Assembly: GCF_000312425.1 (NCBI RefSeq)
Contig: NZ_HE997181.1
Span: 1,958,638 to 2,022,637, forward strand
Length of the DNA: 64,000 nt
Direction: 5' to 3'
Source of the DNA: Reyranella massiliensis 521
GTDB lineage: Bacteria > Pseudomonadota > Alphaproteobacteria > Reyranellales > Reyranellaceae
Made by a program: the position numbers and the translations under genes. Below the pieces are notes generated by a model, which did no database searches, was not told where the DNA came from, and worked only from the letters and a program-made list of their open reading frames with translations. Positions 5,554-15,424 of this stretch are shown here, in pieces (the stretch's first letter is position 1; the number at the start of each line of letters is the position of its first letter).

Positions 5554-6924
5554 ATGTGGATCGTCGATTCTGCGCTCAAGGAGCGGGCAGATACGAACAA
5601 GCCCATTCGCGTCGGCATCATCGGTGCGGGGTTCATGTGCCAGGGCCTGACCAATCAGATCACGCACAGCACGCCGGGAATGCGTGTAGCGGCGATATCG
5701 AACCGTCGGGTCGGAAGGGCTGTCGACGTCTTTCACTACTCTGGCCTTAATGATGTCGTCGTAGCCGATTCGCAATTGCGATTCGATGCTGCAGTCGAGC
5801 GCTCGACGCCCGTGGCAACCGAGGATGCGATGCTCATCGCGCGTAGCGACTTCATCGATGTCCTGGTCGACGTCACCGGCTCGGTGGAGTTCGGTGCCCG
5901 CGTCGCGCTCGAAGCCTTTAAGTACGGTAAGGACGTCGTGCTGATGAACGCCGAGCTCGACGCGACGATCGGGCCAATCCTGCAAACCTATGCCGACGCG
6001 CACGGCGTCATCTTCACGGCCTGCGAGGGCGACGAGCCGGGCATCCAGATGAACCTTTACCGCTGGGTCAAGGGGCTGGGCATGACGCCCCGGCTGCTTG
6101 GCAACGTGAAGGGCCTTCAGGATCGCTATCGCAATCCGACGACACAGAAGGGCTTCGCCGAGAAGTGGGGGCAGAATCCCACGATGGTGACGAGCTTCGC
6201 GGATGGATCGAAGGTGAGCTTCGAGCAGGCCGTCGTCGCCAATGCCACGGGATTCAAGGTGTTGACGCGCGGCATGTCGCGCGGCCTCGACTATCACGGC
6301 GATGTGCTGAAGATCGGCGAAATCTACGATCTCGAAGAGCTGCGCAGGCTCGGCGGGGCGATCGACTATGTGGTCGGGACGCCGCTGACCAAGGTCTACT
6401 GTCTGGCCGAACATCCCGATCCCAAGCAGGCCCACTATCTCAACCTGTACAAGATGGGCCCAGGGCCGCTCTATTCGTTCTTCGTGCCGTATCACCTCTG
6501 CAATCTGGAGGTGCCGACCGCCATCGCGCGGACGTGCCTGTTCCGTGACCCGGTATCGAGGTCGCTGGGCGGCCCGGTGGTGGAGGTGTGCGCCGTGGCC
6601 AAGCGCGATCTCAAGGCGGGTGAAGTACTGGACGACTACGGCATGTACATGACGTACGGCGAGGCAGCCAATGTCGAGGAGATGTCCGGTGGCCGATATC
6701 TACCCCAGGGTCTCGTCGAAGGTTGCAAGCTGCTGCGGGACATCGCCAAGGATGCCGTCATCACCTACGACGACGTCGTCCTGCCGGCCGGGCGCCTGGC
6801 GGACCGGCTGAGAGCCGAGCAATACCGGAAGTTCCGAGGAGAGACCTGGCTCCAGGATCTGCTGGACAAGGCCGACGTGCGAGGCGCGATGGCGCCGGCG
6901 CAACGGGAAAAGGTTCTCGTCTAG
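5554..6924 (+). CDS. NAD(P)-dependent oxidoreductase, Rossmann plus SAF-like domain
   Basis: A 456-residue protein with an N-terminal Rossmann fold (GIIGAGFMCQGL, about residues 24-35) like that of homoserine dehydrogenases. The middle region contains DVTGSVEFGARVA and TACEGDEPG. The C-terminal part (about 350-420) resembles the SAF/antifreeze-like module, with KRDLKAGEVLDDYG. Such proteins occur in polysaccharide and sugar-nucleotide clusters, but I know of no firm reaction; reduction or rearrangement of a keto-sugar is inference. GGAGTGAG precedes the ATG by a few bases. It lies 42 bases after the epimerase gene and 35 before the duplicated-domain gene, so the three may act together. Confidence 0.75.
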   Translation: MWIVDSALKERADTNKPIRVGIIGAGFMCQGLTNQITHSTPGMRVAAISNRRVGRAVDVFHYSGLNDVVVADSQLRFDAAVERSTPVATEDAMLIARSDFIDVLVDVTGSVEFGARVALEAFKYGKDVVLMNAELDATIGPILQTYADAHGVIFTACEGDEPGIQMNLYRWVKGLGMTPRLLGNVKGLQDRYRNPTTQKGFAEKWGQNPTMVTSFADGSKVSFEQAVVANATGFKVLTRGMSRGLDYHGDVLKIGEIYDLEELRRLGGAIDYVVGTPLTKVYCLAEHPDPKQAHYLNLYKMGPGPLYSFFVPYHLCNLEVPTAIARTCLFRDPVSRSLGGPVVEVCAVAKRDLKAGEVLDDYGMYMTYGEAANVEEMSGGRYLPQGLVEGCKLLRDIAKDAVITYDDVVLPAGRLADRLRAEQYRKFRGETWLQDLLDKADVRGAMAPAQREKVLV

Positions 6925-6959
6925 GCAGTGAAAAGTTCATCTCCGAAAGAGTATTGGTC

Positions 6960-8084
6960 ATGACGATCGGGGCAGGGGACTGGGTAGAGGTGCGGAGCAA
7001 GGAAGAGATTCTTGCGACGCTGGACGAACATGGGCGCCTTGAAGGTCTGCCCTTCATGCCGCAGATGACCCAGTATTGCGGTCAGCGCTTCCAGGTATTC
7101 AAGAGGGCAGGAAAGACCTGCAGCGAGATAGACGGGCCGTCGGGTGTTACTTACGTCAGCCGACGGCTGCATGACGCGGTTCATCTCGAACACCGCTGCG
7201 ATGGTCGGGCATACGGCGGGTGTCAGGCTGGCTGCCTCATCTTCTGGAAAGAGGCGTGGCTCAAGCACGCCAATGGCGATGGACCGGGGTATCCAGCATC
7301 CGGATCGTCTGTCGATCGAGCGTCCATCGCCGGGGCCATGAGCGGCTGCACCGAAGACCAGGTTCGTGCGGCAGCCATCTATCGAACGCCGGAAGGCGAC
7401 GTACGGTACTCGTGCCAAGCCACTCAGTTGATGGAAGCCAGCACCCCCCTCAGCCTGTGGGACGCCCGGCAGTACGTCGAGGCTTATCGTTCCGGAAACA
7501 ATTCTCTAGGTACTGTTCTGAAGGCCATCGTGTACGTGCTCTACTACTACGGCACGATGGCGCGTTCCCCGCGCTGGGGCGTGGCGTCTCGCTGGTTCTA
7601 CGACCGCTTCCAGGCGGTCTGGGGAGGCATCCCATTCCCCAGAAAAGCCGGCAAGATCGCAATGGGCCCGACTCCCAGGCTCGATCTGGATCTGCAGCCG
7701 GGAGAAGTAGTGCGGGTCAAATCGTACGAGCAGATACTGGAGACGCTGAGCACGTCGGCGTCCAACCGCGGTCTTAGTTTTGATGCCGAGCTCGTTCCCT
7801 ATTGCGGCAAGGTATTCAGGGTACGTACCCGGATAGAGCGCTTCATCGACGAAAAGACCGGCAAGATGCTGCATATGAAGACGCCGGCTGTCATACTCGA
7901 CGGCGTGCACTGTCAGTCGCTCTACAGCGGACGACGGATACTCTGTCCTCGCGCCGTATTCTTGTGGTGGCGTGAAATATGGCTGGAGAGAATTCCCGAA
8001 GCGGAGGTTGCCCAGGCTGTTTCTGGTTCCGAGAGCCTGTGCCATTCCAGGGCTTCGAGGAAGATCAGTGCGGCCGTCCATTGA
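6960..8084 (+). CDS. Uncharacterised protein with internally duplicated Cys/Trp-rich domain
   Basis: I recognise no function. The 374-residue protein has two copies of one domain, at about 7-103 and 248-344. Shared positions include G-x-V-x-V-R/K-S-x-E-x-I-L-x-T-L, YCG (39-41 and 281-283), a VH followed by paired cysteines (C80/C88 and C318/C329), and a final W-K/R-E-x-W-L (96-101 and 337-342). The cysteines suggest a metal site or disulfides; the beginning of each copy resembles a small SH3-like barrel. A linker of about 140 residues holds C130, C152 and an aromatic stretch (189-200). No signal peptide is evident. The start at 6960 is the first ATG after the preceding gene. Its position ties it to sugar-nucleotide modification. 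Confidence 0.7.
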   Translation: MTIGAGDWVEVRSKEEILATLDEHGRLEGLPFMPQMTQYCGQRFQVFKRAGKTCSEIDGPSGVTYVSRRLHDAVHLEHRCDGRAYGGCQAGCLIFWKEAWLKHANGDGPGYPASGSSVDRASIAGAMSGCTEDQVRAAAIYRTPEGDVRYSCQATQLMEASTPLSLWDARQYVEAYRSGNNSLGTVLKAIVYVLYYYGTMARSPRWGVASRWFYDRFQAVWGGIPFPRKAGKIAMGPTPRLDLDLQPGEVVRVKSYEQILETLSTSASNRGLSFDAELVPYCGKVFRVRTRIERFIDEKTGKMLHMKTPAVILDGVHCQSLYSGRRILCPRAVFLWWREIWLERIPEAEVAQAVSGSESLCHSRASRKISAAVH

Positions 8085-8121
8085 GCGGCTGGCCGAGACC
8101 GCAAGATTAGGGAAAGCTCAG

Positions 8122-8140
8122 CCGTCTATTTGAGAGACGG
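8122..8140. terminator. Weak hairpin between convergent genes
   Basis: CCGTCT at 8122-8127 pairs with AGACGG at 8135-8140 around a 7-nt loop, in the 68-base gap between the convergent duplicated-domain and PIG-L genes. The position suits a bidirectional terminator, but there is no T-run. Confidence 0.3.
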
Positions 8141-8152
8141 AGGTATCGGACG

Positions 8153-8806
8153 TCACTGCACCGTGAGCTTTCTTGCGTGAAAGGCTTCGGCGAAGCCTCC
8201 GGGGGCACGGCATTCCATGCCGCGCAGGCGCGCCAGGCCCATGAAGATATCATCGTCGAACCAGTCCTTGGCGCGCTGGGAGCCGAAATGATCGTGGAGC
8301 AGCTTCGTCTTACGCTCCATCAGCGCTCTGGTGGTCGGCAGGTAGACGTTTGGTTGACCCGTATCGCCATCCCATTTGGGAATCTCGTATTCGAGAATCG
8401 TGTGATCGCGAAATGTATTCCACGTCAGCTGGGATACTTCGCGGTGGTCCTGATGAGCATCTTGACGCCAGTGGGACAGGATCAGATCGGGCGAAGTTCG
8501 CTTTTTCAGCGCTTCGAACCAGACCTTGATCTCGGCGCCCTGATGAGGAAAGAACCCATCCTTGAAGGTCGCCAGGTCGATGACAGCACTGACGGCATTG
8601 CCGAGAAATGCCTGAGCGGACGCGCGCGCTTCGTCGGCGCGGGGGCCGACGGCGCCAAGTACCGCCCAGTGCACGTTCAGGCAGACGCCGCGCTCGATCC
8701 AGCCCAGGATTGTGGCGCCGGCGCCGATCTCGATGTCGTCGGAGTGGGCGCCGATACAAAGCACTGAAAGACGATCACCCGATCCCGCAAGGCCCAGAGG
8801 CTTCAT
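8153..8806 (-). CDS. PIG-L family (LmbE-like) deacetylase
   Basis: A 217-residue zinc-dependent deacetylase of the LmbE/PIG-L family, which removes N-acetyl groups from GlcNAc-type substrates. The metal motif GAHSDDIEIGAG is at about residues 17-28 and a later HxDH (HQDHREV) near residue 118 supplies the third ligand region. No signal peptide is seen, so it should act on a cytoplasmic sugar or lipid-linked intermediate. Its start overlaps the stop of the RfbF-like gene by four bases, so translation is probably coupled. LmbE-like genes next to RfbF-like cytidylyltransferase genes recur in polysaccharide loci. The substrate is unknown. Confidence 0.85.
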   Translation of the reverse strand: MKPLGLAGSGDRLSVLCIGAHSDDIEIGAGATILGWIERGVCLNVHWAVLGAVGPRADEARASAQAFLGNAVSAVIDLATFKDGFFPHQGAEIKVWFEALKKRTSPDLILSHWRQDAHQDHREVSQLTWNTFRDHTILEYEIPKWDGDTGQPNVYLPTTRALMERKTKLLHDHFGSQRAKDWFDDDIFMGLARLRGMECRAPGGFAEAFHARKLTVQ

Positions 8807-9618
8807 CCGGCCTTCCTTGCCGGATCACTCGGGGCCACTCTGACGGCTCCGTCGAAGCGCCAGGGCATCGTGCCTTTGTCGACGAGATCCTCAAGGACCT
8901 GCTTGTCCTTCAACGTATCCATCGGACGCCAAAAGCCTTCGTGCCTGAATGCCATGAGCTGGTCGGCGTCGATCAGGCGCTGGAAGGGCGCTTCGACCAG
9001 TTCATCGCCTGGCTTCATGTAGTCGAAGATTTCGTTGCGGAAGATAAAGAAGCCGCCATTGATCCAGAGATTGGCCTCCTGGCTGGCGCGGATGCGGTTT
9101 ACCTTTCCGCTCGGCCGCATGTCGACGAGGTGCATGCTGAATGACGGCCGAACCGCCAGGAAACAGGCGACCTTACGGCTGGCGCGGAAGGCTTCGATCA
9201 TCTCATCCAGGTTCACGTCGCTCAGGCCGTCGCTGTAGTTGGCCAGGAACATCTCCTCCCCGGCGACGTGCTCGCGGACGGACCACAGCCGTTGGCCGAT
9301 GTTGCGCCAGATGCCGGTATCGATCATGGCGATCCGCCAGTCCTGCTGCGGATCGCCAAGGATCTCCACATTGTCGCCGAAGCCCGAGACGACGCAGTCT
9401 GCGTAGGTCTGCGGCCTGTAGTTCAGGAAGAACTCTTTGACGACGTTTGCCTTGTAGCCGAGGCACAGGACGAAGTCCTTATGGCCGAACTGACTGTAGT
9501 AGTGCATCAGGTGCCACAGGATCGGCTTGTCCCCGATCGGGATCATCGGCTTGGGAATACTCTCGGACACGTCTCGTATACGCGTACCGAGACCGCCGCA
9601 GAACAGAACTGTTTTCAT
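8803..9618 (-). CDS. rfbF: Glucose-1-phosphate cytidylyltransferase-like nucleotidyltransferase
   Basis: A 271-residue nucleotidyltransferase. It starts with FCGGLGTRIRD (residues 6-16) and has IPKPMIPIGDKPILWH, SDGLSDV and WINGGFF, a pattern typical of RfbF, which makes CDP-glucose from CTP and glucose 1-phosphate. The ATG at 9618 sets the usual length; the open frame extends 18 codons further. The usual partner, CDP-glucose 4,6-dehydratase, is absent from the window, so either the product is used directly, the partner is elsewhere, or the specificity differs. First gene of a two-gene minus-strand operon with the PIG-L gene, divergent from wzz. Confidence 0.85.
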   Translation of the reverse strand: MKTVLFCGGLGTRIRDVSESIPKPMIPIGDKPILWHLMHYYSQFGHKDFVLCLGYKANVVKEFFLNYRPQTYADCVVSGFGDNVEILGDPQQDWRIAMIDTGIWRNIGQRLWSVREHVAGEEMFLANYSDGLSDVNLDEMIEAFRASRKVACFLAVRPSFSMHLVDMRPSGKVNRIRASQEANLWINGGFFIFRNEIFDYMKPGDELVEAPFQRLIDADQLMAFRHEGFWRPMDTLKDKQVLEDLVDKGTMPWRFDGAVRVAPSDPARKAG

Positions 9619-9888
9619 GGCAGCAGCCTTTGGATCGTATGCTCTGTGCGTCGGCACTGCGTCTGAGGTCACAATGCTTTTGCCTTGTGGTCACACGTGC
9701 GCCCATCGCTACTGGATGGAACCTGTGCGCGCAGCCGCAACGAGTCAACGAAGCGCCAAGGGTAGTCCCGTTGGTGCGTTTCTGCCGAAGCGACAGCAGT
9801 GCCCGGGATCGCGCTGCTTCCTAAGGGTTAGCCCGTTTGAGGAAATCACGCCGTCCAAAGGGTCACCCGTTCCGCGGGCCGATCAGGT
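9619..9888. promoter_or_regulatory. Divergent promoter region with GGTCACA direct repeat
   Basis: This 270-base gap lies between the divergent rfbF-like and wzz-like genes. GGTCACA occurs at 9667-9673 and again at 9689-9695, 22 bases apart, which is two helical turns. The second copy is part of TGTGGTCACA. This could be a regulator site controlling both directions. No confident core promoter was found. Confidence 0.35.
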
Positions 9889-11226
9889 ATGGATTCCACC
9901 ATGAGTATTCTCGAACTCAATAGCGACAAGCCGCTTGCCGGGACCGACCTCTCCAAGGGGAGAACCGGCCTCGCCCAAGGGGGGGCCGGTCTCGCCACCA
10001 ACAAGGCACTACGAAACCCCGAGCGGCTGGGGCCGGAGAGTCTTAAACAGCAGATTCCGCCTCTGGAGCTCGAGCGCACCGATCTGCGAGCGTATTATGA
10101 GATGGTGGCGGCTCGCGCCTTGTCGTCCATCAAGAGGGAATGGCGTCTTATCGCCTCCATCGTTGTGGTGACGATGACGCTTGCGTGCCTCGTCATCCCG
10201 CTGATCCCGCGCCAGTACTCGGCGACCGCGCTCGTCTACCCGAATCTGTTCTCCGTCGAACAGGCAAAGCTCACCCCTAAAGGGAGCATCGATGCGTCGT
10301 CGCTCGTCACCAGCGAAGCGCGGCTGATCGTCTCCGATGCGATCCTGCAGGCGGTCGTGGCACGTCTCAAGCTGGACGAAAGACCCGGGGTCATGGGGGC
10401 GGGATCATGGGGATCTGGAATTACGAGCTGGATCCGAACCCTGATCCTGCCTGAAACCCGTAATCATTCGCCTTTTGATCGCCAGGTAGCGTTGCTGCGT
10501 AGCCGTGTAGATGTGGCGAAAGACACGCGCTCGTATCTCATTTCCATTTCCTTCACCGCGCATTCCGCAGACGAAGCTGCAGCGGTGGTCAACGCCATTG
10601 CGCTCGAATACATCCGCGACAAGAAGATCCTTCGCAGCCAGAGCGCCGTCGCGGCAGCGGAGGCCGAACTGCAGCGTCAGCTGTCAGTCAACGGCGAAAG
10701 GCATCCCAAGGTGCTGCAGAGCGTTGACGGGCTTGAATCTGCGCGCGCCGAACTGAATGCCATCCTGACAACCGACGATGCCGCTCAGGAAGCCCTCGCA
10801 GCCGATGAGGGAGTCAAGCTGGCGATACCAAACAGGACGCCGACCAGCCCGAAGGGATTCGTGATCCTGGGCCTTTCGTTCATCGTGAGCTTGCTGATCG
10901 GCGTCTGTCTGGCGGTCTGGCGCGACCGACTTGGTTTCGAGCCGCGGCAGTTCCTTCTCGATCTCTTGTCGACCGGACGGCGTTATGGCCACCAGATTGC
11001 GGGCGGCCGTAATGTGGGAAGCGGAGCGACATCCGTTCAGATTTCAAACTCTCGAACTGGATGGACCGCGGACAAGTGGCGGCGCCTTCGTACGGGCTTT
11101 TCCTCGCTGGTTCAGAGTGCATTCGCTCCGGTCCGTCATGGTGGCGGCCTGATCGGGCAGCGGGGGCGCCGACAGGATGAGCAATTGCGTCGCCGTTCGA
11201 CCGGAAGGTCGAAACGCATCATCTAA
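9889..11226 (+). CDS. Wzz-type polysaccharide chain-length determinant
   Basis: A 445-residue inner-membrane protein of the polysaccharide co-polymerase family. Membrane segments are at about 86-106 and 323-345, flanking a periplasmic domain with coiled-coil character (about 245-300). The N-terminal 60 residues are cytoplasmic and include a short imperfect repeat (18-36). After the second membrane segment there is a basic tail of about 100 residues containing WRRLRTGF near residue 398. An LRT motif normally precedes a tyrosine autokinase domain, but no Walker A follows, so the kinase is missing or decayed. A start at 9901 is equally possible. First of a series wzz-wzx-wzy. Confidence 0.8.
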   Translation: MDSTMSILELNSDKPLAGTDLSKGRTGLAQGGAGLATNKALRNPERLGPESLKQQIPPLELERTDLRAYYEMVAARALSSIKREWRLIASIVVVTMTLACLVIPLIPRQYSATALVYPNLFSVEQAKLTPKGSIDASSLVTSEARLIVSDAILQAVVARLKLDERPGVMGAGSWGSGITSWIRTLILPETRNHSPFDRQVALLRSRVDVAKDTRSYLISISFTAHSADEAAAVVNAIALEYIRDKKILRSQSAVAAAEAELQRQLSVNGERHPKVLQSVDGLESARAELNAILTTDDAAQEALAADEGVKLAIPNRTPTSPKGFVILGLSFIVSLLIGVCLAVWRDRLGFEPRQFLLDLLSTGRRYGHQIAGGRNVGSGATSVQISNSRTGWTADKWRRLRTGFSSLVQSAFAPVRHGGGLIGQRGRRQDEQLRRRSTGRSKRII

Positions 11227-12596: not shown

Positions 12597-13955
12597 ATGT
12601 CGGACGCGGTCAGACACGTTTCCGGACGCACGCTTCTCTGGGGCGATCGCTATCTGACGTTCCTGGCAATCGTATTGCTGGGCTATGCCTTGCTGGGAAA
12701 AGGCTTCGCCTATATCGGCATTCCACCGCTCTACATCGGCGAGATCGCGTTCCTCACCGGGATCGTCGTCCTCGTCAGATCCGGCGCGCTCGTCGCCTCT
12801 GTCACGACACTTCCAAGCCTTTTGCTGATCGCGACAATGATGTGGGTCGTGGTGCGTACCGTCCCGTACATAGCCGTCTACGGGATCGATGCGCTGCGGG
12901 ATAGCGTCATTCTCCTGTACGGCGCCTTTGCCTTCATCGTCATTGGATTGCTGCTGGAAGACGCTCGCAGGATCGATACCGTTCTTCGCTATTACGCCGC
13001 GTCGCTCGTGACCTTTCCCATAATACCCTTGGCGTTCTGGCTGACCAAATATTGGGGGGACTATATCCCCAGGCTATACGGTCCGAACATACCGATCGTG
13101 GAGATCGGAGCGAGTGCGCTCGGCACGCATCTGGCCGGTGCTGCGGTCTTCGTCTTGATCGGTTATCGGAAGGTGTCGTGGTTCTGGGTCCTGATCTGGT
13201 TCGGGGCGTTGGCGATGATCGGCGCGTCCAATCGGGGCGCAACGCTTGCCGCCGCCGTGGCAATCATGCTTGCGATGCTTGTGCTGGGACGGCTTCGCAT
13301 GATGCTGACAGCCGCCGTCGCGGGCGTAGGGCTTTTCGTTGTTTTGCTCACGGCTGAGGCTACGTTTCTCGACTACGAGGAAGTCAAGGATTCCATCGAC
13401 CGCCCCGTCAGCGCGCATCAGATATTGGAGAACATCAGGAGCGTAATCGGTCAGTCCGGATCGCAGACGGAAGGAACGAAGAAGTGGCGTCTCGATTGGT
13501 GGGATATCATCATTGGCGATACGATCCATGGGCCGCATTTCTGGACCGGCCGCGGGTTTGGCTTGAATCTTGCCGATGCCGATGGGTTTGCCGGCACTGG
13601 CGATGCCAACACGTCTCGCCCCCCGACGCGAAGCCCGCACAACGCACACATGACTCTCCTGGCGCGGGCCGGCGTTCCCGGCGTGGTGTTGTGGTCGCTC
13701 GTGCTCCTGTCCTGGAGTGGCTTGATGCTGCGCGCGATGCTGATCGCATATCTCCGCGGACATACGCAGTGGAGAAACCTTTTCCTATGGATCTTCTGTT
13801 ACGTGACCGCGATCGTCATCAACGCGACGTTTGACGTTACGCTCGAGGGGCCGATGCAGGGTATCTGGTTCTGGTGCCTGTTCGGCTTCGGCGTTGGATC
13901 GGTGATGGTTTATCGCGCACAGGTTGCCGATGAAGCCGTAGGCCGGCTGCGATGA
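12597..13955 (+). CDS. O-antigen ligase/polymerase-like membrane protein (Wzy-like)
   Basis: A 452-residue polytopic protein with about 10-12 membrane segments and a large extracytoplasmic loop (about residues 255-345) before the last segments, as in Wzy polymerases and WaaL ligases. The loop contains WWDIIIGDTIHGPHFWTGRG and SPHNAHM, a motif shared by this superfamily. In this position, after a flippase and a chain-length regulator, polymerisation of repeat units is the likely role. GTG 12591 is an alternative start two codons upstream. The stop overlaps the next start by four bases, so the beta-helix gene is translationally coupled. Confidence 0.78.
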   Translation: MSDAVRHVSGRTLLWGDRYLTFLAIVLLGYALLGKGFAYIGIPPLYIGEIAFLTGIVVLVRSGALVASVTTLPSLLLIATMMWVVVRTVPYIAVYGIDALRDSVILLYGAFAFIVIGLLLEDARRIDTVLRYYAASLVTFPIIPLAFWLTKYWGDYIPRLYGPNIPIVEIGASALGTHLAGAAVFVLIGYRKVSWFWVLIWFGALAMIGASNRGATLAAAVAIMLAMLVLGRLRMMLTAAVAGVGLFVVLLTAEATFLDYEEVKDSIDRPVSAHQILENIRSVIGQSGSQTEGTKKWRLDWWDIIIGDTIHGPHFWTGRGFGLNLADADGFAGTGDANTSRPPTRSPHNAHMTLLARAGVPGVVLWSLVLLSWSGLMLRAMLIAYLRGHTQWRNLFLWIFCYVTAIVINATFDVTLEGPMQGIWFWCLFGFGVGSVMVYRAQVADEAVGRLR

Positions 13956-15424
13956 TGAGCTGGATTTCAAAGTGGGCGCTACGCAGGAGCCTGCTTGGCT
14001 CACTAGTGCTTACTGGCTTCCTGATCACGGGGGGAGCGGCAAGGGCAGGCGTCGATGACGCGCGCTGCCCCTCCAATGCGATCGCCGTCGAGCCCGGCAC
14101 GCTGATCCAGATGGCTGCGGATCGCGCCGGTATCGGCGCTTTGTTGTGCCTCAAGAATGGCATTCACAGGGCTCAGGCGGTTCGACCGCTGGCAAAGCAG
14201 AAATTTTACGGGGAAGGCCAGAGCGTCCTGAACGGGAGCCGAGTGCTCACCGGATTCAGGCGCGAGGAGAGCTTCTGGGTAATGAACATCGCGCTCCAGC
14301 GCAGCCGGAAGCACGGCGAATGCCTGCCGAGCGCTCCGATCTGCAATCAGCCGGAGGCCGTGTTCATCGATGACCGACCGTTGATCCGATTGCCGGGCAA
14401 GAACGGTTTGGCGAGCGGCAAGTTCTTCATCGATTACGCTGCTGGCAAGATCTATCTGGGCGACGATCCGACCAATCGAACGGTCGAACTGACGGTCGCC
14501 GCATTTGCGTTCGAGAGCACGGCGGCCGACGTGCTGATTAGCAATATCACCGTGGAGAAGTTCGCAAGTGCTGCGCAAAAGGGGGCGATCCACTCCCGCG
14601 AAGGCAGCGGGTGGACCATCGAAAAATGTGAGGCCCGCTTGAACAGCGGAGCCGGAATCAGCGTGGGAACGGGTAGTCATGTCCGGAACTGCGATATTCA
14701 TCACAATGGCCAGATCGGCATCGAAGGCAACGGCAATGATATCCGGATAGAGAATAACCGTATCTGGTCGAACAACATCCACGGCTTCGATGCCACCTGG
14801 GAGGCGGGCGGCGTGAAGATCGCGCTGAGCGACGGGGTCACGTTCCGCGGCAATCACGTCTACGACAATGACGGCCCCGGCTTGTGGTGCGACATCGACT
14901 GTCGCAATGTCTTGTATGAAGAGAACCTCGTCGAGAACAACCAGGATGTCGGCATCTTCCACGAGATTTCATTCAAGGCAGTGATTCGCAACAACGTGCT
15001 GCGGCGCAATGGCCTCGGCAACAGGGGATGGTTCTGGGGTACCGACATTCTCCTTTCCGCATCCGAGGATGTCGTGGTGTCGGACAATACACTGACCACC
15101 GCACCTGGAAGATGCGGGATCATGCTGATCGACCAGGGACGTCGGAACAGCAGTGGCAAGTTCTACAAAACGCGCAACAATACCGTCCGTGCCAATGAGA
15201 TGACCTTCGAAGGCGCGGCTTGTGCGGGGGGGACTTCCGATACCAAGCCAGGCAGCGAGAATTTCGGGATCATCACGAGCGGCAACAACCTGTTTGACGG
15301 CAATACCTACCGCGTCGGACGGCAGAGTGGAGCAAGCCGCTTCGTGTGGGGACATGACGTCACCGGCTGGGACGGCTTCCGACGAAAGGGTCAGGAGCGG
15401 AACGGCCGCCTGATCCCTCTTTGA
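13952..15424 (+). CDS. Secreted right-handed parallel beta-helix protein
   Basis: A 490-residue exported protein. A signal peptide is visible at residues 1-31 (positive start, hydrophobic core, cleavage after ARA). From about residue 190 there are repeated short segments rich in N, G and I (IRNCDIHHNGQIGIEG, IRIENNRIWSNNIHG, FRGNHVYDNDGPG, LYEENLVENNQDVG) that mark a parallel beta-helix as in polysaccharide lyases and mannuronan epimerases. It probably cleaves or epimerises the polymer made by the neighbouring genes, in the periplasm or outside. The catalytic residues are not identifiable, so binding without catalysis cannot be excluded. Translationally coupled to the Wzy-like gene. Confidence 0.75.
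   Translation: MMSWISKWALRRSLLGSLVLTGFLITGGAARAGVDDARCPSNAIAVEPGTLIQMAADRAGIGALLCLKNGIHRAQAVRPLAKQKFYGEGQSVLNGSRVLTGFRREESFWVMNIALQRSRKHGECLPSAPICNQPEAVFIDDRPLIRLPGKNGLASGKFFIDYAAGKIYLGDDPTNRTVELTVAAFAFESTAADVLISNITVEKFASAAQKGAIHSREGSGWTIEKCEARLNSGAGISVGTGSHVRNCDIHHNGQIGIEGNGNDIRIENNRIWSNNIHGFDATWEAGGVKIALSDGVTFRGNHVYDNDGPGLWCDIDCRNVLYEENLVENNQDVGIFHEISFKAVIRNNVLRRNGLGNRGWFWGTDILLSASEDVVVSDNTLTTAPGRCGIMLIDQGRRNSSGKFYKTRNNTVRANEMTFEGAACAGGTSDTKPGSENFGIITSGNNLFDGNTYRVGRQSGASRFVWGHDVTGWDGFRRKGQERNGRLIPL

Follow-up and report, generated by a model that had tools for sequence, protein, structure and literature searches.

SH3-like barrels are mostly binding modules. Proteins that carry them include Mind bomb, a eukaryotic ubiquitin ligase whose REP region is a tandem protein-binding module, and nitrile hydratase, in whose beta subunit a helical part precedes the barrel. 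The window analysed here, a stretch of 64,000 nucleotides from Reyranella massiliensis 521, holds a gene whose product is predicted to contain two such barrels (P0001, hereafter the two-barrel protein; Table 1). One match to it at E ≤ 1 was found in the window's own genome.

The gene lies among sugar-nucleotide genes. A SAF oxidoreductase is encoded directly upstream, across a gap of 35 bp, and its Pfam matches place it with the DRL/DXR-II-like oxidoreductases, DRL (PF21135) and DXR-II being presumably the same group. A published account sets DXR-II beside two related uncharacterised families, DLO1 and DLO2 (PMC3847144). A DRL-type SAF oxidoreductase beside a gene of cytidylyltransferase type points, tentatively, to a pathway for branched sugars or polyols. 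The RfbF-like nucleotidyltransferase scores below the cut-off of TIGR02623, the glucose-1-phosphate cytidylyltransferase equivalog, and perhaps represents a sister group.

Table 1. Features of the two-barrel protein and its neighbours in the window, with conservation among homologues.
Feature	Position	Strand	Evidence
DRL/SAF oxidoreductase	5554..6924	+	PF21135 E 3.5e-43, SAF E 1.7e-6
Two-barrel protein gene (P0001)	6960..8084	+	Open frame without internal stops, 374 aa
N-terminal SH3-like barrel (predicted), residues ~4-104	6969..7271	+	AF2 of residues 1-105 alone, pLDDT 87.8
C40 of YCG, proposed ligand 1	7077..7079	+	66/67 two-copy, 12/13 single-barrel rows
C54, conserved in N copy only	7119..7121	+	66/67 two-copy; absent from 13 single-barrel rows
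C80 (RCDG), proposed ligand 2	7197..7199	+	67/67 two-copy, 13/13 single-barrel rows
C88-x3-C92, proposed ligands 3 and 4	7221..7235	+	Both 67/67 two-copy, 13/13 single-barrel rows
Middle region, residues ~105-242	7272..7685	+	AF2: ~105-130 low-confidence, helices within 132-221
C152-Q153 motif	7413..7418	+	Both residues in 67/67 two-copy homologues
C-terminal SH3-like barrel (predicted), residues ~243-345	7686..7994	+	AF2; Mind bomb REP Z 7.3 over 70 residues
C282, counterpart of C40	7803..7805	+	47/67
C318, counterpart of C80	7911..7913	+	67/67
C329, counterpart of C88	7944..7946	+	67/67
PIG-L deacetylase	8153..8806	-	PF02585 E 5e-13
RfbF-like nucleotidyltransferase	8803..9672	-	TIGR02623 224.6 bits, below cut-off 300.25

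A duplicated protein of an uncharacterised family

Copy 1 covers residues ~4-104 and copy 2 residues ~243-345, with ~138 residues between them. They share 31% identity over 98 aa (blastp, E 6.7e-14), and comparison of the N-copy family with the C-copy family, profile against profile, gave a probability of 99.92 and E 8.8e-35 (hhalign); the internal duplication claimed in the original prediction is thus beyond chance. We aligned 67 open reading frames from 66 loci, each matched over at least 280 aa, with one Bradyrhizobium locus (L008) contributing two; this main alignment excludes 13 loci whose forms are fragmentary, split or single-barrel. The conserved cysteines and tryptophans first noticed in the window hold across it, with WKEAWL/WREIWL nearly invariant and eight cysteines likewise (C40, C54, C80, C88, C92, C152, C318 and C329). 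Other motifs had to be amended. The opening motif is G-x-x-V-x-V-[RK]-S (GDWVEVRS in copy 1, GEVVRVKS in copy 2) and not GxVxV. The pattern of VH followed by two cysteines describes copy 2 (C318, C329), but copy 1 has three (C80, C88, C92); H75 is kept in 51 of the 67 homologues, and at the position of H317 Trp is commonest (15/67), His being outside the five commonest residues. The YCG cysteine is nearly invariant in copy 1 and less so in copy 2 (C40 and C282, Table 1).

Searches of Pfam, NCBIfam, PADLOC, PHROG and PDB sequences gave no substantial match for the protein. The Pfam matches listed for it have E values of 0.05-0.21, profile searches of the PDB with the family returned only E ≥ 0.077, and matches to DUF3123, Ski2 and VirA (E 0.05-1.4) were taken as chance. 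Membership of a known named family was rejected on these grounds, and a phage origin is unlikely (0 matches among 50,697 phage records; best match to a viral structure at E 0.01). Open-licence papers yielded nothing on this family, on its motifs or on its set of genes. This is, as was first supposed, an uncharacterised family, apparently new, although its fold is known.

A scan of genome contigs returned 78 loci with relatives besides the window's own. They come from many Alphaproteobacteria (Bradyrhizobium, Afipia), from Acidobacteria, Beta- and Gammaproteobacteria, from Planctomycetes, Verrucomicrobiota and others, and from one actinomycete, with single-barrel forms in Methanoregula, Campylobacterota and KSB1. 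The family is uncommon in the samples and patchily spread among bacteria: it was found in at least 3 of 398 sampled species of the window's phylum (possibly a low count, as at most 12 candidates were scored per genome), in 4 of 37 genomes of the window's genus, in 4 of 59 sampled genomes of the phylum of the KSB1 genome and in 2 of 120 of that of the methanogen genome. Five of six matches in a plasmid collection are annotated 'hypothetical protein', and the sixth carries no annotation. At L008 the two genes, 5967-7091 (+) and 9333-10502 (-), have diverged and flank a WecG-like gene. In Rhodoblastus acidophilus DSM 137 (L067, 7992-8950) the match is split across two overlapping frames.

Predicted fold of the two copies

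Structure prediction had been proposed for each copy, and AlphaFold2 yields an SH3-like barrel twice, a known fold. The whole protein was modelled from 65 aligned sequences, two rows containing X (L050, L064) being left out, with pLDDT 90.6 and pTM 0.87; copy 1 alone was modelled from 73 rows that included the single-barrel forms (pTM 0.78; pLDDT in Table 1). The best solved match for both copies is the Mind bomb REP region, represented by PDB entry 4xi7, a complex with a Jagged1 peptide. Copy 1 superposes on it with Z 7.8 over 69 residues at 2.6 Å, and copy 2 with a best Z of 7.3 at 2.3 Å, its matches spanning 70-74 residues at 2.3-3.0 Å. A Z of 7-8 is of the size that the tool rates as common for models without a clear match, and these superpositions of predicted models, all with Z < 8, speak for the fold level only. 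Foldseek with copy 1 alone gave no match at E ≤ 0.001 (best 0.35).

The Pfam family SH3_15 (PF18346) is not listed for the two-barrel protein or for either copy (limit E 10, most matches above 0.1 being filtered). It does match 6 of 65 family members at E ≤ 1 (best 1.9e-4) and 4 of 73 barrel rows (best 0.016), and on account of these matches the family may be distant kin of SH3_15.

Cysteines of the two barrels

The four cysteines of a Cys4 domain are present in barrel 1, where C40, C80, C88 and C92 are kept in 66-67 of the 67 two-copy homologues and in 12-13 of the 13 single-barrel rows. From this conservation we infer that they would make a metal site. The original prediction of two like sites for metal or redox chemistry was not borne out by the alignment. 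In copy 2, V333 stands where copy 1 has C92, and a single homologue (L054) has a cysteine there. Because copy 2 is without the fourth cysteine in 66/67 homologues and without the first in 20/67, two equal sites are rejected, and the protein has one complete site, which possibly binds metal.

Single-barrel relatives and the history of the barrels

The single-barrel rows hold counterparts of C40, C80, C88 and C92 in 12, 13, 13 and 13 of 13 cases. In all six rows aligned there, a cysteine corresponding to C152 lies upstream of the barrel, followed by Gln in four; single-barrel L107 has no cysteine upstream of its barrel, so the C152 counterpart is not universal. In a tree of 141 barrels the N, C and single-barrel rows each fall on one side of a branch (support 99/94, 100/92 and 97/61). 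Under midpoint rooting, used for drawing only, the C side has L054 and the long-branched L058 at its base. The simplest history begins with a four-Cys barrel, passes through one duplication before the two-copy forms radiated and ends with the loss of ligands in copy 2. Two minimal frames, L111 (3353-3730, 126 residues) and L112 (5541-5930, 130 residues), each encode little but one barrel; L112 adjoins what by eye looks like an Fe/Mn superoxide dismutase gene.

A survey of single-domain relatives for co-occurrence with RfbF, PIG-L and SAF genes, as originally suggested, found these in none of L073-L079 and L109-L113 in the flanks examined. In 4 of the 11 single-barrel loci (L073, L109, L110, L113) the barrel gene adjoins a FemAB or Acetyltransf_6 (GNAT) gene, the neighbours of the other seven having been scanned in part; among two-copy loci, FemAB-like genes occur in four only (L016, L030, L045, L057). 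L109 also has Bac_transf- and Wzc-like genes, L110 a flippase and L078 an O-antigen ligase, and L077 and L078 share a gene that by eye is AsnB-like. The genes looked at in the Campylobacterota loci encode a WD40 protein, a TPP enzyme and, by eye, an LpxD-like protein.

Genomic neighbourhood

Among the 79 loci, which include the window's own (L001, with short flanks), we counted glycosyltransferases in 46, flippases in 40, RfbF in 35, PIG-L in 34, RfbC in 21 and SAF in 14. These counts rest on stop-to-stop open reading frames in place of called genes, one listing using a home-made greedy choice, and they are lower bounds, since no flank is longer than 8 kb and contig fragments make up several of the loci. 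The linkage to RfbF and PIG-L that the window had suggested is thereby supported; evidence for a particular link with the SAF oxidoreductase is weak. L003 is counted without RfbF or PIG-L in its flank; in genome G002, on a contig of equal length, both lie ~11 kb away. The immediate neighbours are often flippases (Polysacc_synt), GT2 glycosyltransferases or Bac_transf proteins and vary by locus; a C-methyltransferase (PF08421/PF08484) recurs in 17 loci and DUF4910 in 12.

A polysaccharide-type neighbour (flippase, glycosyltransferase, CDP-sugar cluster or polymerase) is present in 59 of the 79 loci, the window's own included. The queries for this count were taken from the window and the loci themselves, some after their Pfam match was known (L053, L065, L078), so that these three loci match by construction. 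The 20 loci without such a neighbour include 7 from a sub-clade of 10, three Campylobacterota, L079 and some fragments; L055 is counted among them despite its own fused GT4. In that Rhodoblastus locus (7755-10142) the two-barrel protein and a GT4 glycosyltransferase share one open frame, in which an internal Met could start the GT4 part. Parallel beta-helix proteins (PF13229) recur in the clusters, as in the window (13952-15424, +) and in L078 (8165-9511), and L065 (9485-10816) has DUF1565/Pel9A-like helix matches.

RfbF or PIG-L was found in 36 of 52 main-group two-copy loci versus 0 of 10 in the sub-clade and 0 of 4 others, again a lower bound from the flanks; for main group against sub-clade Fisher's test gives 4.9e-5, uncorrected for ancestry common to loci and congeners. 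Within the genus (n = 37 genomes) the same four genomes hold the protein together with PIG-L and RfbF of at least 85% identity, and some RfbF-like gene (E ≤ 1e-30) is present in 14. PIG-L adjoins the two-barrel gene in the window, lies 7 and 11 kb off in two congeners and is on another contig in the third. In the two congeners with distant PIG-L, the two-barrel gene adjoins WecG.

A proposed role and its alternatives

The duplication, predicted fold, cysteine conservation and genomic setting are computed, and from them we infer, tentatively, a metal-stabilised, cytoplasmic twin-SH3-like adaptor for polysaccharide assembly. Two SH3-like barrels would be joined by a partly helical segment in a protein that is presumably cytoplasmic, as a signal peptide is not apparent by eye. 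The four-Cys site of barrel 1 would most likely bind a structural metal such as zinc, and barrel 2 would be a diverged copy with a decayed site. Such a non-catalytic adaptor or assembly factor would hold together or regulate enzymes or membrane proteins that assemble surface polysaccharide by a Wzx/Wzy-type route, in many cases within pathways that use an RfbF-type nucleotide sugar. The polysaccharide setting is the commonest constant while the surrounding enzymes change, which favours a role in binding or assembly rather than a single fixed step of catalysis; an SH3-like fold is in keeping with such a role. The sub-clade and Campylobacterota loci, mostly without polysaccharide neighbours, count against the adaptor. 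So do E298, K97, R338 and E339, invariant or nearly so among homologues, which could equally be catalytic or ligand-binding residues.

The same polar residues, together with the cysteines and the presence of RfbF or PIG-L at the 36 main-group loci, would suit an enzyme, or a subunit of one, that depends on metal or thiols and acts on the sugar itself in the RfbF/PIG-L nucleotide-sugar pathway. We regard this as rather unlikely: 16 of 52 main-group loci, 10 of 10 sub-clade loci and 4 of 4 other two-copy loci are without both genes in flanks that give a lower bound on presence, the two-barrel protein stays while the pathway enzymes vary by locus, and barrels of this kind mostly bind.

Eight near-invariant cysteines exceed the needs of one four-ligand site, and the patchy, accessory distribution would also fit a sensor of redox state or metal whose cysteines switch polysaccharide assembly. 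This is improbable, as Pfam matched no DNA-binding, kinase or cyclic-nucleotide domain in the protein and the scanned neighbours are mainly biosynthetic and transport genes. A bolder proposal, and a long shot, has two four-Cys metal sites, one in barrel 1 (C40/C80/C88/C92) and an interdomain one (C54/C152/C318/C329) that would have arisen after the duplication as the barrel-2 site decayed; the protein would then act as a two-barrel switch clamped by metal and would represent a new class of cytoplasmic protein that organises the assembly of lipid-linked polysaccharides.

A nitrile-hydratase-beta-like protein, whether metallo-enzyme subunit or metal-insertion chaperone, is suggested by the whole-model Foldseek search of the PDB, in which nitrile hydratase chains account for all six matches at E ≤ 0.001 (best 1.5e-4), by the Z of 5.8 between barrel 1 and thiocyanate hydrolase (2dd4_D), and by the helical part before the barrel. 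The six alignments have an rmsd of 15.6-20.2 Å and a query TM of 0.13-0.19, so they support the barrel and not a shared two-part architecture. The match to 1ahj_B (84 residues, 4.4 Å, Z 5.8, the superposition termed VIA) starts at residue ~230, covers the barrel and ties in Z with ribosomal proteins. The nitrile hydratase beta family is absent from the Pfam matches of the protein and of either copy (limit E 10). We find this reading very unlikely. Among the subset of neighbour genes scanned, none was named as a partner alpha subunit with a metal-binding Cys motif. The idea of a cofactor partner that serves the SAF oxidoreductase specifically, suggested by the adjacency of the two genes in the window and in L002, is hardly credible and was rejected, since SAF occurs in only 14 of 79 loci against 35 for RfbF and 34 for PIG-L and is an immediate neighbour at those two loci only.

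Comparison with known systems

The family spans several bacterial phyla and methanogens, is matched by no Pfam or NCBIfam model and is tied to surface-polysaccharide clusters, where its protein belongs to none of the customary classes, namely transferases, flippases, polymerases and sugar-nucleotide enzymes. If it does serve as an adaptor in assembly, a step that is usually described in terms of its membrane proteins would have a soluble organiser. The four-Cys SH3-like barrel, in single and double forms, offers a compact model for the decay of one duplicated site.

A clear homologue is WP_244507008.1 of Mesorhizobium ciceri plasmid pMc1284, with 53% identity, annotated 'hypothetical protein' with no function; its neighbours encode PIG-L, a nucleotidyltransferase, a SAM methyltransferase, RfbC, DUF4910 and a lipopolysaccharide biosynthesis protein. 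The nitrile hydratase beta and thiocyanate hydrolase subunits share the SH3-like barrel with the two-barrel protein, but nitrile hydratase beta has no reliable superposition outside the barrel and no family-level match. KOW-type barrels of ribosomal chains, which we take to be uL24 and eL21 (the matches themselves name only the ribosome), have the same barrel fold (Z 5.4-6.5), whereas no sequence relation to them was found and the setting is not ribosomal. The Mind bomb REP region is like both copies in its SH3-like barrel yet only 17-20% identical over the match, and the conserved cysteine site and the bacterial polysaccharide setting belong to the two-barrel protein.
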